A DNA stretch of 28,722 bases, from the IMG/VR virus record IMGVR_UViG_3300031167_000025, positions 1-28,722 of that record; one strand, given 5' to 3'. The notes beneath the pieces were generated by a model that ran no database searches, was not told the origin of the DNA, and saw only the letters and a list, made by a program, of their open reading frames with translations. Source of the DNA: a virus. Made by a program: the position numbers and the translations under genes. Of this stretch, positions 4,154-28,722 are shown piece by piece. Numbering within the stretch: position 1 is the first letter of the stretch; each line of letters starts with the position of its first letter.

Positions 4154-4789
4154 ATGGAACCAGAAAAAGATATATTCGACGAGTGGGCCGATGAAAGAGA
4201 AGCCAAATCATGGATTAGAAAAAAACTAGAATTCATTCCATTGTGGTGGGAAAGAGATGGTAACAGTATGCACCTTGAATTTACAAGAGGAGTAAAGAAT
4301 CTTATTTATTGGTTTCCTATCATATGGAAAGATCGTAACTGGGATTCTCATTATATCTTTGAGATCTTAAAACATAAATTGACATCACAAGCAAATTATA
4401 TCGCAGAACAGGACAGACATACAAGGGCTCAGAAGGATGCAAGGGATATGAAGCGATGTGTTGAGTTAATGAAATTAATTGATGATGGTTTTTATGAGGG
4501 AGAATATTGTGATTATCATAAAACAAAGAATTGGTTTGAACCATTAGATGATAATACAGGTTCATCAACATGGGAATCTAGAGAACTAGAAGAAAACTTC
4601 GATGACTATTTCGCTAAATATCCATTAATCCATAAAAGAGCATTAAATGGCGAAGGACCTTTTGGTAAAAATGATACAGAAAAGAGCAAACAAATAATAG
4701 CAATGAATATTGGAAACATTAACCAAGAAAGAGCACATTCGTTATTGTTTAAAATAATGAAAGATAATATTCTTGGATGGTGGGATTAA
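4154..4789 (+). CDS. Hypothetical protein (211 aa), conserved phage type
   Basis: An acidic, Trp-rich soluble protein. Segments such as IYWFPIIWKDRNWDSHYIFE, followed by an ILKHKL helix and a long charged helix (about residues 85-115), resemble conserved proteins of unknown function in several large phages. No catalytic motif is visible. It starts directly behind promoter copy 1 and stands alone between two promoter modules, so it is probably expressed as a single-gene early unit. Confidence 0.8.
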   Translation: MEPEKDIFDEWADEREAKSWIRKKLEFIPLWWERDGNSMHLEFTRGVKNLIYWFPIIWKDRNWDSHYIFEILKHKLTSQANYIAEQDRHTRAQKDARDMKRCVELMKLIDDGFYEGEYCDYHKTKNWFEPLDDNTGSSTWESRELEENFDDYFAKYPLIHKRALNGEGPFGKNDTEKSKQIIAMNIGNINQERAHSLLFKIMKDNILGWWD

Positions 4790-4793
4790 CTCT

Positions 4794-4812
4794 TATCTAT
4801 AATCAATATAAA
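4794..4812 (+). promoter_or_regulatory. Shared upstream box (TATCTATAATCA-type)
   Basis: TATCTATAATCAATATAAA here and TATCTATAATCATTATAAA at 11767-11785 differ at one base. Each lies about 20-30 bases before a promoter module. This suggests an extra regulator site or upstream element used only by these two promoters. Confidence 0.35.
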
Positions 4813-4841
4813 TAACAATTATATTGAAAACAGTTACCCAA

Positions 4842-4884
4842 AAGTTTTTATATATGATATAAAATGCTTATATTTACTTATAAC
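4842..4884 (+). promoter_or_regulatory. Promoter module copy 2 (divergent)
   Basis: AAGTTTTTATATATGATATAAAATGC leads into TTATATTTACTTATAAC, ending 15 bases before the ATG at 4900. The -7 core and right arm are kept. The left arm is shortened to TTATA, and the AAAATAAGTG box is absent. Confidence 0.72.
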
Positions 4885-4899
4885 TAATAACTAAAACAT

Positions 4900-5199
4900 A
4901 TGTCAATCAACAAAGTATTAATTCAGGCACAGTATTCAGAAAATTATTCAGAAAATGAAGTTCCTTTTTGGAAAAAGAAAGGTGGACAGGTATTTGAAAT
5001 AGAAATAGATGCAGATCTATTAATGTATTCTGATCCTGCAAAGATCTTTACGGAGATGTTGATGAAACATTGTAACGAGCAGTGGAAATACGAGTATGTC
5101 TCTCATGAGATATTGTTTAGTAAACCTATAATAATAGGTACGGCTGATGAATACAAGAAGACATATCACTACTTAGAGGCAGATAAGGAAAATGTCTAG
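4900..5199 (+). CDS. Hypothetical protein (99 aa)
   Basis: It begins MSINKVLIQAQYSENY and continues with an acidic alpha/beta-like body. The N-terminal strand followed by an E/W-rich segment is of a type seen in phage orphans. No motif gives a function. The gene is driven by promoter copy 2, and its stop overlaps the next start by 8 bases, suggesting coupled translation with the flavodoxin-fold protein. Confidence 0.75.
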   Translation: MSINKVLIQAQYSENYSENEVPFWKKKGGQVFEIEIDADLLMYSDPAKIFTEMLMKHCNEQWKYEYVSHEILFSKPIIIGTADEYKKTYHYLEADKENV

Positions 5200-5746
5200 G
5201 GGTTTAATCGTAGTATCAGACTCAAATCCATTAGGACTTTCTCATAAGTTAATAGCCCCGACAATAAAACTATTATACACTAAAAGGGGTTTTAAATGTG
5301 ATATAATAGACTTACATAGAGATGAATTTAACCCTATGGCAAATAGGGACTCCCTATCTAACAAATTATCAAAACACTATAAGCATCACATAAAAACAGC
5401 AGATCATATACACTTCATTACAAGCGTTAATTTAGGTGGAATTTCGCCAGGGCTTGAGGGTTTCTTTGAACAAGTATTGACAAGTGGATTTGCATATGAT
5501 AGTATTGATGGTAAACCAAAGGGTAGGTTGCACAAGAAAGAAGTTTATTTTTATCTACAACATACCAAGACCATGAAAACTAAATTCAATGCGGCTTGGT
5601 TAAGATTAAAGTTTAGTGTGATTCCTACCATTTTTAAAACAAGTACTATATTTCAGAGTGGATTATCATGGGGAGATAGAGAAATTAAATCAAAGAAGAT
5701 CAATAAGGTTAGAAATACCTTAATAAAGAAACTATTTAACGATTAA
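5192..5746 (+). CDS. Flavodoxin-fold NAD(P)H oxidoreductase-like protein
   Basis: The 184-aa product fits the NADPH-dependent FMN reductase/quinone reductase group. It has an N-terminal strand with a phosphate-binding turn (VVSDSNPLGLSHKL), a conserved central strand and loop (HFITSVNLGGISPGLEGFF), and the FEQVLTSGFAYD helix-turn typical of these enzymes (compare the family's DRVFTPGFAF). It would carry FMN and reduce quinones or other acceptors in the cytoplasm. The first loop is not a perfect flavodoxin T-x-T-G-x-T, so activity is uncertain. Phages rarely carry this fold; it may adjust host redox state. Confidence 0.75.
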   Translation: MSRGLIVVSDSNPLGLSHKLIAPTIKLLYTKRGFKCDIIDLHRDEFNPMANRDSLSNKLSKHYKHHIKTADHIHFITSVNLGGISPGLEGFFEQVLTSGFAYDSIDGKPKGRLHKKEVYFYLQHTKTMKTKFNAAWLRLKFSVIPTIFKTSTIFQSGLSWGDREIKSKKINKVRNTLIKKLFND

Positions 5747-5835: not shown

Positions 5836-6141
5836 ATGAACGCACAAGAACAGGTAAAAGAAGTAAGAGATATAGTAAGACACTATTTCGAAGAAAACAG
5901 TATGTATGCTGGGATTGATGATATGAGTACTGATAATAAAGAACATGTTATTAATATCGGTGCTAGTATATTATGTACTAAATGGGGTATTGGATATGAA
6001 GGTGGTAGTTTTGTACAAGCTGTCGTTGAAAACGATTTACAAGGTGCAATTGGAAGAGCAGATGGAATAAGCTTGAGAGCTTTAAAATTCTTTTGTCAAT
6101 TAATGTATAATACTGGTCAACCAGTTTTTAAAGAAATATAA
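5836..6141 (+). CDS. Hypothetical protein (101 aa)
   Basis: A helical acidic protein: MNAQEQVKEVRDIVRHYFEE, then Gly-rich turns (GIGYEGGSFVQAVVENDL), ending in a helix with a Cys (LKFFCQLMYNTGQP). This pattern is seen in phage proteins of unknown function. It is the first gene of a four-gene unit (5836-7201) behind promoter copy 3. Confidence 0.75.
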   Translation: MNAQEQVKEVRDIVRHYFEENSMYAGIDDMSTDNKEHVINIGASILCTKWGIGYEGGSFVQAVVENDLQGAIGRADGISLRALKFFCQLMYNTGQPVFKEI

Positions 6142-18024: not shown

Positions 18025-19089
18025 ATGAAGAAAAACAAGGAATTTTTATACAACTATTTAAATGCATATTCACCAGCAGGGCAAGAGCAAGAGGGACAGG
18101 CTATCTGGGAAAATTACATTGAAGATCATGTTGATGTAATTAAAACCGATGCATATGGAACGTCGTATGGTATTAGAAGAACAAAGAATGTAGAACAACC
18201 TTTAAAAGTTGTGATTGAGGCACATTGCGATGAAATCGCTTGGATAATTACACATATCGAGGCTGATGGTATGATTAGAGTTAAAAGACATGGTGGATCA
18301 GATAATATGATTGCACCTAGTAAAACTGTGATGATACATACACATAAAGGTGCAAAGGTTAAAGGATTATTCGGTTGGCCTGCAATTCATACAAGAAATG
18401 CATATACTTCAATGGGATATGATCAGCATGAATTATGGGTAGATACTGGGTTAAAAGATCTTGCTGCTGTAAATAAAGCAGGAGTTGAAGTTGGAAACTT
18501 AATTACATTCGATGATCAGTTCCATGAAATGGGAGACTTTTACGTAGGGAGATCATTAGATAATAAGATCGGCGGTTATATCATTGCAGAAGCTCTTAGA
18601 GAGATCTCAGAGAAGAAACATGAATTACCTTATGATTTATACGTTGTAAATTCAGTTCAAGAAGAGGTTGGATTACATGGTGCTAAGAAGATTGCTAAAT
18701 TATTACAAGCAGATCTTGCGCTAGTTCATGATGTATGTCATTCACTTAGTTTGAAAATGGATTCAGCTAAAGATGGAAGTATGAAAGCTGGGGATGGTCC
18801 ATGTATTGAATATACTCCACAGAATCACAGAGGTATTAATAAGATGATTAGGAAAATTGCTGATGAGAATAAAGTACCACTTCAATTAATAGTAGGATCA
18901 ATGGGGAATGACACTATGGCATTCTTTATGGAGAATACTCCGACTGCAATCATAGCAACCCCTCTTAAGTATATGCATACAACTGTTGAAATGGCGGCAA
19001 AGAAAGATGTTAAAAGAGCTATTAAGTTGTTTGTAAAGTTCTTATTGGAATTAACACCAGCAAAAATTAATGAAATAAATAATAAATAA
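18025..19089 (+). CDS. M42-family metallo-aminopeptidase
   Basis: A 354-aa peptidase of the glutamyl-aminopeptidase/endoglucanase-like M42 group. The two-metal site is complete: H67 and catalytic D69 in EAHCDEIAW, bridging D179 in RSLDNKIGGY, E213-E214 in VQEEVGLHGA, D236 in LVHDV, and H318 in KYMHTTVE. These enzymes form large cytosolic tetrahedral dodecamers and trim peptides. Full length and full motifs suggest activity. A phage copy is unusual; it may release amino acids during late infection or shape a phage protein. It ends just before structured terminator copy B. Confidence 0.92.
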   Translation: MKKNKEFLYNYLNAYSPAGQEQEGQAIWENYIEDHVDVIKTDAYGTSYGIRRTKNVEQPLKVVIEAHCDEIAWIITHIEADGMIRVKRHGGSDNMIAPSKTVMIHTHKGAKVKGLFGWPAIHTRNAYTSMGYDQHELWVDTGLKDLAAVNKAGVEVGNLITFDDQFHEMGDFYVGRSLDNKIGGYIIAEALREISEKKHELPYDLYVVNSVQEEVGLHGAKKIAKLLQADLALVHDVCHSLSLKMDSAKDGSMKAGDGPCIEYTPQNHRGINKMIRKIADENKVPLQLIVGSMGNDTMAFFMENTPTAIIATPLKYMHTTVEMAAKKDVKRAIKLFVKFLLELTPAKINEINNK

Positions 19090-24138: not shown

Positions 24139-24438
24139 ATGAGTTTAAAGACAATTAAAGAAGAGTATATGAGTACTTCAAAGAACGAGATACTAGGATC
24201 AGTTATAGATAATTTTATATTTGGATTCCTAGGAGCAATACTCATGGTTTTTATAGCGGAGAGAATAGATATAATGGTTCTAGTAGGTTATATGGTTTAT
24301 TATTTCTTTTTAGGAAGAGTTGTTAATAGACCTAAATACGTAACTTCATTGGGTAAATTTATAGTGTTTCCAGTTCCAACCGCATTGGGTGGATTCGCAG
24401 GATATAAATTAGCGTATCTTATTTCATCTTTAATGTAA
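24139..24438 (+). CDS. Small membrane protein (99 aa)
   Basis: I choose ATG 24139, 1 base after the thyA stop, over an in-frame ATG at 24070 inside thyA. Membrane segments lie near 25-42 (FIFGFLGAILMVFIAERI), 46-62 (MVLVGYMVYYFFLG) and 75-97. Overall hydrophobic, with few charges in the core. It could be a small channel-like or holin-like protein, but nothing proves this. Confidence 0.72.
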   Translation: MSLKTIKEEYMSTSKNEILGSVIDNFIFGFLGAILMVFIAERIDIMVLVGYMVYYFFLGRVVNRPKYVTSLGKFIVFPVPTALGGFAGYKLAYLISSLM

Positions 24439-24450
24439 GATATATAGACT

Positions 24451-25059
24451 ATGAAAACAAGACACTCAGCGGGATTCGCTATAATCTATAAAGGTAAAAT
24501 ACTATTAGGACATACGACTGGTCGCAAGAGTAGCACAGGATATGGTATACCTAAGGGTGGGATTGAAAAAGGAGAAAGTCATATTGAAGCTGCAATCAGA
24601 GAAACTTACGAAGAAGTTGGTATTAAAGTAGATCGCAAACTAATAGATCCTACTGAATATACGTTTACATATACTAGTAAGAAATATCAGACTAATAAAG
24701 TAATTTATTATTTTATAGTAGAGATAGATAATCTTTCTCAGATTGGATTAAAAAGTGAGATTGTTTCAAAAAGCAAACTACAACTTGAAGAAATTGATGA
24801 TGCTAGATTCTTTGCGTATAAAGATGCTCAGAAACTAACGATGTTTACGCAGCTAAGTGTAATTAGTGCACTATTAGGTAAAGGCCTGTTAGAAGCTAAG
24901 ACAATTGGTGGTAAAAACATAGAACCTAATCAAGAAATCAATGCAACTCAAGACGGGGTTGTAGAGGATCCTAGGTTAAACAAGATCAGAAAATTCAAAG
25001 CAACAATACAGGATTATAAATCATATTGGGATGATAGAGTCAGTAAGGGAAATAATTGA
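24451..25059 (+). CDS. Nudix hydrolase
   Basis: A perfect Nudix box, G-x5-E-x7-R-E-U-x-E-E-x-G-U, runs from G36 to I58 (GGIEKGE ... RETYEEVGI), preceded by YGIPKG. The enzyme cleaves nucleoside diphosphates linked to another group, such as oxidised dNTPs, NADH, ADP-ribose or capped RNA. About 60 residues after the Nudix fold form a charged C-terminal extension with unknown role. It overlaps the next gene by 29 bases. An AGATATATA motif lies immediately upstream (24438). Confidence 0.92.
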   Translation: MKTRHSAGFAIIYKGKILLGHTTGRKSSTGYGIPKGGIEKGESHIEAAIRETYEEVGIKVDRKLIDPTEYTFTYTSKKYQTNKVIYYFIVEIDNLSQIGLKSEIVSKSKLQLEEIDDARFFAYKDAQKLTMFTQLSVISALLGKGLLEAKTIGGKNIEPNQEINATQDGVVEDPRLNKIRKFKATIQDYKSYWDDRVSKGNN

Positions 25060-25348
25060 ATCGCTAATAGGCGAATGGGGTTGGTTGATCGGCGTTGCAG
25101 TATTTTCTATTGCTTTTAAAGATTCAATATCAAAACTATGGAGTGGGCTGAGTTTCCTAATGGGGAATGATTTCAATGTAGATGATATTGTATGGATAAA
25201 CGGTAACAAGAAAGCTAGGATAGTTCGACAGTCAATCTACAGAACGACATTCTATTTATATGATCACGAAAGGAAGTTCGTTGTACCAAACAACAGGATA
25301 TGGAGCTTGAATCTTGAAAAAGATTTAGACAAAATGAAAAAGAATTAG
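25031..25348 (+). CDS. Minimal MscS-like mechanosensitive channel protein (105 aa)
   Basis: One N-terminal membrane helix (about 15-32, WGWLIGVAVFSIAFKDSISK) continues into LWSGLSFLM, like the pore-lining TM3 of MscS. It is followed by the MscS beta domain: DFNVDDIVWINGNKKARIV, then RTTFYLYDHERKFVVPNNRI, close to the family's I-P-N-s end. Normal MscS has three or more helices and a large vestibule. Here only pore helix plus beta domain remain. It could form a small pore, alter host MscS, or support lysis. Starts inside the Nudix gene (29-base overlap). Confidence 0.72.
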   Translation: MIESVREIIESLIGEWGWLIGVAVFSIAFKDSISKLWSGLSFLMGNDFNVDDIVWINGNKKARIVRQSIYRTTFYLYDHERKFVVPNNRIWSLNLEKDLDKMKKN

Positions 25349-25416: not shown

Positions 25417-25596
25417 ATGGATTTCATCAACGAAGTAGATCCGACTTCGCTAGATGGACAAACCGAAAAATTATCTGTTGAAAAATCGAATACGATTGAA
25501 GATATGGTAGACTTCGAGTCTATTAACTTTAACGAATACGATGAAGAGTCTGATGACTATTACTTGTTCCAATTTGGTGTTGGCGGTCCCGCCTAA
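25417..25596 (+). CDS. Small acidic protein (59 aa)
   Basis: An ATG-to-TAA frame encodes a strongly acidic peptide (MDFINEVDPTSLDGQTEKLS ... YDEESDDYYLFQFGVGGPA). It is flanked by a class 2 promoter and a terminator, so it is a single-gene unit. The acidic character may mimic DNA or bind a basic protein. No family recognised. Confidence 0.7.
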   Translation: MDFINEVDPTSLDGQTEKLSVEKSNTIEDMVDFESINFNEYDEESDDYYLFQFGVGGPA

Positions 25597-26625: not shown

Positions 26626-27021
26626 ATGAATACTGAGAAATCACCAAAAGAACTAATCGGGGAATTATACAAGTTATTTGCCACTTTTAAGGTAAAGATG
26701 GAAGATCCTAATTTCATTCAGATTGAGAATTCTCTTAACCAATTGGTAGAGAACCAAAATGACATGAAAAAAGAGATGCGAGAGATGAAAAGACAGCTCT
26801 TGAGCCCTTTTGATGGAGTTATCGTTGAAACCAAAAAGAATACAGAAGCTCGTTTAGAATCTGAAGAGAGCCGGATTACTCGTGAACTACGAACAGAGGA
26901 ACATAAAGAACTTATGAGATTTAAATCTACATTCGTTAAATTAGGATGGACACTTGTTACAGGTATTGGTGGTATTATTGCATTTTTAATTACAAACGCA
27001 TTAAACTTATTTAGTAAATAA
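26626..27021 (+). CDS. XhlA-like coiled-coil protein with C-terminal membrane anchor (131 aa)
   Basis: A long charged helix with heptads (ENQNDMKKEMREMKRQL, then a second helical part rich in Glu and Arg) ends in one membrane segment at about 106-127 (LGWTLVTGIGGIIAFLITNA). This build matches XhlA/haemolysin-type phage membrane proteins that work with lysis enzymes, though bacterial tail-anchored proteins look similar. Close to the transglycosylase-like gene, a role in lysis is plausible. The stop overlaps the next start (TAATG). Confidence 0.72.
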   Translation: MNTEKSPKELIGELYKLFATFKVKMEDPNFIQIENSLNQLVENQNDMKKEMREMKRQLLSPFDGVIVETKKNTEARLESEESRITRELRTEEHKELMRFKSTFVKLGWTLVTGIGGIIAFLITNALNLFSK

Positions 27022-27524: not shown

Positions 27525-28722
27525 ATGGCTAAAAAACCAATTAATAAATCGGAATATAAAAATAGTAAAGGTAAATTCCAACCTCAATATCCTACTAGGG
27601 ATAAGGGAGTATCTCGTAGTAGATTACCCCTTACCCATGATGAAATGGATTATAATTTTGATCTAATAGGTCAGATTATTGGTGGTTATGAGGTAATGGG
27701 GACTGGATTAGACGGTGACTTTGATCTAGTTGCTGATTTAAATAAAGTATTACAGCTTCATTTAGTAGTAAACACAGATACAGTATTGATTGCTTCAGGA
27801 GCAACTATTGGTGATTATGTTTGGATTCCTACGTTAATAGGAAGTGGACCTGCTGGTGAAAGAGGACCTACTGGATCAACAGGGCCATCGGGTTCAGATG
27901 GAGTAGATGGAGCACATGGATTAGTCGGAGCAGAAGGACTACGAGGAGCAGAAGGACTACGAGGAGCAGAAGGACTACGAGGAGCAGAAGGTTTAGCCGG
28001 AATAGAAGGAATACAAGGATTAGATGGAGCTGCTGGTTCTGATGGAGCTGATGGAGCTGCCGGTTCTGATGGAGCTGATGGTTCTGATGGAGCTGCTGGA
28101 GGAACAGGGCCTGTTGGTCCTAGTGGATCACAAGGAACTGCAGGTGCACCAGGAACTTCGACATTCTTTCATGTCGCGTATTCAGACGATATTAATGGTA
28201 CTGGATTTACACAATCACCTCTTGGTAAAACATATATAGGTACTTATGTTGATTCAAACGATGATGATAGCCAAATCGCTAGCGATTATACATGGATTTT
28301 AATAAGAGGAACTGATGGAACACAGGGATTTCAAGGAGATAATGGAGATGATGGATCTACTAGTTATTTACATATAGCATACTCAAATAACTTAGTTGGC
28401 GATTTAGATTTTAGTATTACTGATTCAGTTGGTAGAACATATATAGGAATATATACTGATGGATTATCGCCTGATTCAATGGACCATACTTTATATAAAT
28501 GGACTTTAATTAAAGGAGAATCTGGACCTGTTGGTCCTAGTGGATCACAAGGAACACAAGGAACTGCGGGAACTTCGACATTTTTTCACGTTGCATATGG
28601 AGACGATGTTAATGGCGTTGGATTTACACAATCACCTCTAGGTAAAACACACATAGGTACTTATGTTGATTCAATTCAATTAGACAGTAATACTCCTTCT
28701 GATTATACATGGCTTTTAATAA
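27525..28722 (+). CDS. Collagen-like tail-fibre protein (partial, N-terminal 399 codons)
   Basis: It begins MAKKPINKSEYKNSKGKF, then a short domain with LPLTHDEMDYNFDLIG, a motif frequent at the N-termini of phage fibre proteins that attach to the baseplate. From about residue 107 come Gly-x-y repeats (GPAGERGPTGSTGPSG and others), interrupted by globular modules that start STFFHVAY and end DYTWILI. The modules recur three times, the first and third nearly identical. The frame is open to the window end. The collagen part should form a trimeric stalk. Confidence 0.9.
   Translation, partial: MAKKPINKSEYKNSKGKFQPQYPTRDKGVSRSRLPLTHDEMDYNFDLIGQIIGGYEVMGTGLDGDFDLVADLNKVLQLHLVVNTDTVLIASGATIGDYVWIPTLIGSGPAGERGPTGSTGPSGSDGVDGAHGLVGAEGLRGAEGLRGAEGLRGAEGLAGIEGIQGLDGAAGSDGADGAAGSDGADGSDGAAGGTGPVGPSGSQGTAGAPGTSTFFHVAYSDDINGTGFTQSPLGKTYIGTYVDSNDDDSQIASDYTWILIRGTDGTQGFQGDNGDDGSTSYLHIAYSNNLVGDLDFSITDSVGRTYIGIYTDGLSPDSMDHTLYKWTLIKGESGPVGPSGSQGTQGTAGTSTFFHVAYGDDVNGVGFTQSPLGKTHIGTYVDSIQLDSNTPSDYTWLLI
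27927..27998 (+). repeat. 18-bp tandem repeat in the collagen-like stalk
   Basis: GGAGCAGAAGGACTACGA occurs three times without change (27927, 27945, 27963), and a fourth unit at 27981 diverges after 11 bases. Each unit encodes Gly-Ala-Glu-Gly-Leu-Arg, two collagen triplets. The perfect identity suggests recent slippage and likely length variation. Confidence 0.9.
28110..28674 (+). repeat. 417-bp spaced duplication in the fibre gene
   Basis: A 29-bp identical segment (28110-28138 and 28527-28555) and a 106-bp segment (28152-28257 and 28569-28674) recur at the same 417-bp offset. The longer pair differs at about 13 positions by eye. Between them lies a more diverged copy of the same module (residues STSYLHIAYSNN...). 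This points to duplication of a fibre unit by recombination. Confidence 0.85.

Follow-up and report, generated by a model that had tools for sequence, protein, structure and literature searches.

A phage-specific branch of the MscS superfamily reduced to the pore helix and the beta-domain

Trimmed members of the MscS superfamily

Microsporidian MscS2 consists of TMH3 and the beta-domain and forms a heptamer, its N-terminal truncation being, to the knowledge of the authors who described it, unique to microsporidia (PMC11262690). The protein is hard to handle, and kink residues were named for both MscS and MscS2, P129, G143 and P166 (PMC11262690). Another trimmed MscS, TcMscS from Trypanosoma cruzi, possesses one bulky hydrophobic gate residue and is a tension-gated channel of 478 pS (PMC12334622), so that a strongly trimmed MscS can retain tension gating. 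With respect to viruses, a survey of viral transport proteins contains mechanosensitive channels from algal and giant viruses only (PMC6163359), and a 2026 study reports MscL genes in estuarine Caudoviricetes (PMC13288924). The virus channels of these two papers are either a 261-aa MscS-like protein with three TMs or of the MscL type, and differ from the phage protein dealt with here; no phage protein restricted to TM3 and the beta-domain occurs among them. No description of such a phage protein was found in open-licence papers.

The gene presented below, hereafter mini-MscS, is located in a window of 28,722 nt, i.e., the whole stretch of DNA analysed (IMG/VR virus record IMGVR_UViG_3300031167_000025, positions 1 to 28,722). 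Its product belongs to a branch of the MscS superfamily that is specific to phages and in which only the pore helix (TM3a/TM3b) and the beta-domain remain. This TM3-beta-only form of MscS, previously described only in microsporidian parasites, is found here in a bacterial virus and in hundreds of metagenome virus sequences. Like the phage proteins, MscS2 from Nematocida displodere (PMC11262690) comprises a TM3-like helix and a beta-domain only, TM1/TM2 and the cage being lost, and the lengths are similar, short microsporidian members counting 73-95 aa and phage proteins 98-170 aa. However, MscS2 belongs to eukaryotic parasites, is bacterially derived and keeps the equivalents of P129, G143 and P166, whereas most phage proteins keep only that of P166 (P86). 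TcMscS (171-aa entries 9sdg and kin; 9bgq; PMC12334622) similarly consists of TM3 and a beta core devoid of the C-terminal alpha/beta cage, shares with the phage proteins a single bulky hydrophobic residue at the gate and matches them structurally with a Z of 7.2, but it has kept an N helix and TM2 and is a demonstrated mechanosensitive channel. Escherichia coli MscS, YnaI, MscK and Helicobacter pylori MscS share the TM3b plus beta-domain fold of the phage protein (Foldseek probability 1.00), but possess TM1/TM2 paddles and a C-terminal cage, and display x-G-x-V where the phage proteins have K/R-x-A-R-I. As another case of extreme truncation of MscS, represented in phages by more than 250 sequences, the family offers a deep alignment for structural work and a bacterial test system, and bears on the smallest part of MscS able to form and gate a pore.

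Predicted fold and extent of the phage family

The preliminary description of the window, made from its letters, proposed a 105-aa ORF at 25031-25348 that starts within a Nudix gene and keeps only the TM3-like helix and the beta domain of MscS. These coordinates are exact, the ORF starting 29 nt inside the Nudix ORF, and the reduction to helix and beta-domain is supported by the profile, the model and the conservation of the family (Table 1). An overlap of 29 nt with the upstream ORF also occurs in L056, L057 and L060, reduced to 26 nt in L059 and to 4 nt in L064-L066. The Pfam profile PF00924 (MS_channel_2nd) matches residues 31-94 of the window protein with 26.3 bits (E 8.1e-6; curated cut-off 20.2 bits), and a six-frame search of the window locates it at the same site with 26.4 bits. 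The top sequence match among solved structures, H. pylori MscS (4hw9) over residues 19-95, is weak (E 0.013). Comparison of a phage-only with a cellular-only profile gives a probability of 94.7; a comparison mixing phage and cellular rows was excluded as circular, and the separate profiles were used instead.

Table 1. Features of the mini-MscS locus (positions in the window)
Feature	Position	Strand	Basis or remark
Nudix hydrolase gene, 202 aa	24451..25059	+	NUDIX 59.4 bits; overlaps mini-MscS by 29 nt
Conserved C-terminal tail, TIG...EDPRLNKIRKFK...DYKSYWDDRVSKGNN, about 50 aa	24901..25056	+	Fused to Nudix in the window
mini-MscS gene, 105 aa plus stop	25031..25348	+	PF00924 26.3 bits; AF2 pLDDT 80.5; Foldseek top 50 MscS family
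Long helix, residues 2-45 (TM3a + TM3b equivalent)	25034..25165	+	DSSP of AF2; alignment with E. coli and H. pylori MscS and YnaI
Hydrophobic segment, residues 12-29	25064..25117	+	Pore-facing by homology A23 (Ec L105) and I27 (Ec L109); then K30 (Ec Q112)
Beta-domain, residues 46-97	25166..25321	+	Pfam, AF2, conservation
Phage-specific motif KKARIVRQ, residues 60-67	25208-25231	+	Within the beta-domain
PN, residues 86-87		+	Within the beta-domain
Small acidic ORF ending FGVGGPA	25417..25596	+	Next downstream in several clade-1 relatives
Putative SLT-type lysin, N-terminal signal-like segment	26031..26549	+	SLT E 5.8e-4, 19.9 bits, just under the cut-off of 21.3
Coiled-coil protein, C-terminal hydrophobic segment, XhlA-like by eye	26626..27021	+	Conserved downstream; phrog_2990 E 5.7e-5

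Structure prediction, chosen beforehand as the check on which the MscS assignment could fail and run on the monomer, predicts an MscS fold and leaves the observation standing. The AlphaFold2 model, built from 14 phage sequences with neither cellular MscS in the alignment nor templates, reaches a pLDDT of 80.5 and consists of a helix (residues 2-45) followed by the strands of the MscS beta-domain (DSSP); an earlier model from 3 sequences (pLDDT 56.7) gave meaningless structural matches and was replaced by this one. Among the top 50 Foldseek matches listed for the PDB, all belong to MscS, MSL, YnaI, MscK or Flycatcher1 with a probability of 1.00, and TM-scores on the query for the MscS-family matches are about 0.5-0.6. 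VIA-align gives a Z of 9.3 with AtMSL10 and of 7.2 with TcMscS over 90-99 residues, the other rows, mostly Tudor, CarD and similar small barrels, covering the beta part only. AlphaFold has been trained on MscS structures, and the model consequently represents support rather than proof. The window protein thus displays the beta-domain and the TM3-beta fold of the MscS superfamily and lacks both the canonical paddle, as 15 residues precede TM3a, and the C-terminal alpha/beta cage, as the chain ends about 8 residues past the beta-domain and PF00924 is the only domain found.

Searching IMG/VR, first with single members and later with alignments, successively yielded 2, 6, 13, 8, 29 and finally 256 confirmed relatives, of which the best 80 were kept; some of the contigs are near-duplicates, and the E-values are relative to candidate stretches. 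Comparison with these relatives thus reveals same-sized homologues in many phage contigs, the 74 distinct complete proteins measuring 98-170 aa. None of the 41 N-terminal extensions and none of the 37 C-terminal extensions long enough to be tested contains a hydrophobic segment, the maximal mean Kyte-Doolittle values over 17 residues being 1.04 and 0.61, respectively, whereas the TM3a segment has a median of 1.85. The part of the family examined is therefore uniformly devoid of TM1, TM2 and the cage. A quick tree of 30 proteins resolves two well supported groups of 15 each, to which a later scan added a third; the proteins of this marine-looking group are 156-170 aa in length, their ends being longer and disordered in appearance. 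The PF00924 cut-off is exceeded by relatives from each of the three clades (L142 29.8, L154 31.8 and L105 30.2 bits). A T4-type Gp23 capsid gene scores above its cut-off in ten contigs, which identifies at least those ten as T4-like phages. Between the window and its nearest relative, pN is 0.137 and pS 0.811 for the mini-MscS gene, and dN/dS ranges from 0.02 to 0.15, about 0.1, in pairs diverged enough for estimating both. The gene is under strong purifying selection in many phages.

With respect to other collections, seven family queries against 50,697 deposited phage records retrieved nothing convincing, and a cellular MscS query against such records matched faecal records lacking annotation and contigs of bacterial or prophage appearance. 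In 84,980 bacterial and archaeal genomes, scanned twice with short peptide patterns that could miss cellular relatives, 0 relatives were found. Up to an E of 1, no PHROG family corresponds to the window protein, and none corresponds to the other members tested at a useful E. Three viral proteins of BFVD (A0A516LVN0, A0A1B1IQW5 and A0A516MLU7; 104-138 aa) share the predicted fold (E 8.5e-8 to 2.8e-6) but only 24-28% identity, and relatives of mini-MscS have therefore already been deposited, though not recognised.

Conserved positions and possible function

In the alignment with MscS, whose register sets K30 of the window protein against Q112 of E. coli MscS, the constrained positions of the helix are residues 17, 23, 27, 30 and 39. 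Among the 74 proteins, residue 23 (the pore-facing L105 of E. coli) is A or G in 70, residue 27 (L109) is bulky and hydrophobic in all 74, residue 30 (Q112) is K or R, again in all 74, and residue 39, corresponding to the G121 hinge, is G in 69 and A in 5. Conservation is much higher in the beta-domain than in the helix, and nearly all phage members exhibit in this domain the hallmark (K/R)xAR(I/V)xR, at the place occupied by xGxV in solved cellular MscS. In 29 of 30 proteins, the segment preceding the helix carries a net negative charge, which, following the positive-inside rule, fits an N-out, C-in orientation as for TM3 of MscS.

By analogy with MscS, TcMscS and MscS2, mini-MscS is tentatively regarded as probably forming a ring of single-pass subunits, most likely a small pore of the inner membrane that acts as a constitutive or low-threshold leak. 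The protein would cross the inner membrane once, with the N-terminus outside and the beta-domain in the cytoplasm, where this domain would join the subunits in a ring, their number probably being seven, as in MscS, TcMscS and microsporidian MscS2. The narrow pore walled by the helices would be constricted once, at the hydrophobic residue 27, with the lysines or arginines of residue 30 forming a ring below. A small leak of this kind, low-threshold or constitutive, could shift the ion and solute balance of the host during infection and, in some phages, might act alongside lysis genes, not as a classical osmotic safety valve. Owing to the lack of the TM1/TM2 tension-sensing paddle, a leak or an otherwise gated pore is likelier than an osmotic valve; judged from the sequence, an osmotic or leak channel role, close to the change in host osmotic response suggested earlier, is possible.

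Several features argue against a pore. The hydrophobic core is of limited length and, in many proteins of clade 1, includes a charge at position 15, and the equivalents of P129 and G143 are lost in 29 of 29 phage proteins (D47 and A62, respectively), that of P166 (P86) being kept in 26 of the 29. In addition, E. coli MscS deprived of both C-terminal domains is not inserted in the membrane, according to a work cited in PMC11262690, and the function of the microsporidian precedent, MscS2, is itself unproven. The wider proposal, that a widespread phage family uses the MscS pore-and-beta ring, free of tension sensor and cage, as a dedicated infection-time membrane pore and would represent the first minimal TM3-beta channel family in bacterial viruses, is possible, with rather more doubt. 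If true, it would provide the smallest natural system for asking whether TM3 plus beta alone gates, and it may also hint at how T4-like phages influence the membrane of their host.

Gene neighbourhood and rival readings

In the clade of the window, the slot directly upstream of mini-MscS is occupied by unrelated phosphohydrolases, namely Nudix in the window, L061 and L063, and a PAP2 phosphatase in L057, L059, L060 and L064-L067, as well as in L062 at a distance of one gene. The tail, about 50 aa long and terminated by YWDDRISKG, is joined to PAP2 in L057, L059, L060 and L064-L066 (six relatives) and forms a stand-alone ORF in L001/L056 and L002/L058; its coordinates in relatives are 5865-6029 (L001), 5082-5273 (L002) and 4187-5023 (L030). 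The tail is also under purifying selection and, in the window and in contigs G001 and G002, is found only at the mini-MscS locus. Swapped enzymes (Nudix, PAP2) accordingly sit before a constant tail which overlaps the mini-MscS gene.

The main rival reading, itself rather unlikely, is a non-conducting, membrane-anchored ring, in which the MscS beta-ring would have been reused as an oligomeric scaffold at the cytoplasmic side of the host membrane and hold partners, e.g., the upstream enzyme through its tail. The far better conservation of the beta-domain as compared with the helix, the basic motif of this domain, unlike cellular MscS, and the occurrence of a conserved tail on unrelated enzymes encoded directly upstream in overlapping frames are all consistent with such a scaffold. 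However, the positions of the MscS pore face (23, 27 and 30) and of the G121 hinge (39) are constrained too, and the tail is absent from most of the family and thus cannot be a general partner.

A role in lysis, either as a small pore resembling a holin or pinholin or as a membrane-depolarising helper late in infection, is distinctly improbable. A peptidoglycan hydrolase (SLT-like, glucosaminidase or amidase) occurs within three genes on either side in several phages. The hydrolases nearby are an amidase directly upstream in L062, a glucosaminidase that immediately follows in L064-L066 and lies two genes off in L057/L060, an SLT-like gene three genes away in the window, and amidase-like ORFs, recognised by eye, in L105/L107/L111. 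The T4-type holin model matches nothing in 30 contigs, but this search had no positive control and many of the contigs are fragments. Synteny among close relatives, moreover, is not independent evidence, and in the marine clade no lysin lies within 2 kb of mini-MscS, the neighbours being PhoH-like or structural-looking genes. The lysis helper of the preliminary description is thus at most partly supported, the hydrolases being a few genes away at most in several phages of clade 1, while the larger marine clade has none within 2 kb; the link is suggestive for clade 1 only. The window protein has no match to a holin family (PHROG, E up to 1), which is still compatible with a new holin.

A dominant-negative subunit, another early suggestion, would co-assemble with host MscS and block the channel, and the protein has indeed retained the oligomerising beta-domain and TM3. 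This reading is disfavoured and highly improbable, since the family keeps its own K/R-x-A-R-I/V-x-R signature across very divergent phages, in contrast to the x-G-x-V of solved cellular MscS; the best cellular sequence matches are weak, and the family-wide conservation suggests self-assembly. A chance or decayed ORF, or a functionless fragment of a host gene, as the small size and the overlap with the Nudix frame might suggest, is ruled out by the 256 confirmed relatives, the shortness of all complete ORFs examined and the dN/dS of about 0.1.

Other ORFs recur around the locus. The FGVGGP(A/G) C-terminus of the small acidic ORF is conserved in clade-1 phages, the ORF also lying some genes away from mini-MscS in L107 and L111. 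A conserved small membrane protein of about 100 aa (24139-24438) is encoded in the window, L002, L030 and L031, where its gene separates thymidylate synthase from the Nudix slot. An HExxH-like motif (HETIHFQQ / HESIHIKQQ) marks a small ORF of membrane type that recurs near mini-MscS in both clades (L043 7689-8036, L044 7935-8288, L045 7372-7725, L083 3609-3965 and L001 3687-4052); two of its members have no Pfam match. Downstream of the cluster, a collagen-like protein with Gly-X-Y repeats, probably a fibre, runs off the end of the window (27525-28721).

On mini-MscS, no capsid-targeting signal was seen by eye. About 20 ORFs in G002, the contig behind L002, and 4-5 in G001, behind L001, begin with an MKxxKLFEEFINE-like sequence resembling the T4 capsid targeting sequence, which is cut after (L/I)xE; their sites include 66248-69808, 84499-87430 and 168287-172472 in G002, and 23723-31791 in G001. 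One of these ORFs has a match in phrog_2667, a PHROG family of internal head proteins (E 0.004), and together the ORFs may represent a large set of co-packaged, injected proteins. Elsewhere in the window, the phage genome encodes an M42 glutamyl aminopeptidase (18025-19089; Pfam 218 bits) and a papain-family (C1) cysteine protease (2170-2958; 42.3 bits).
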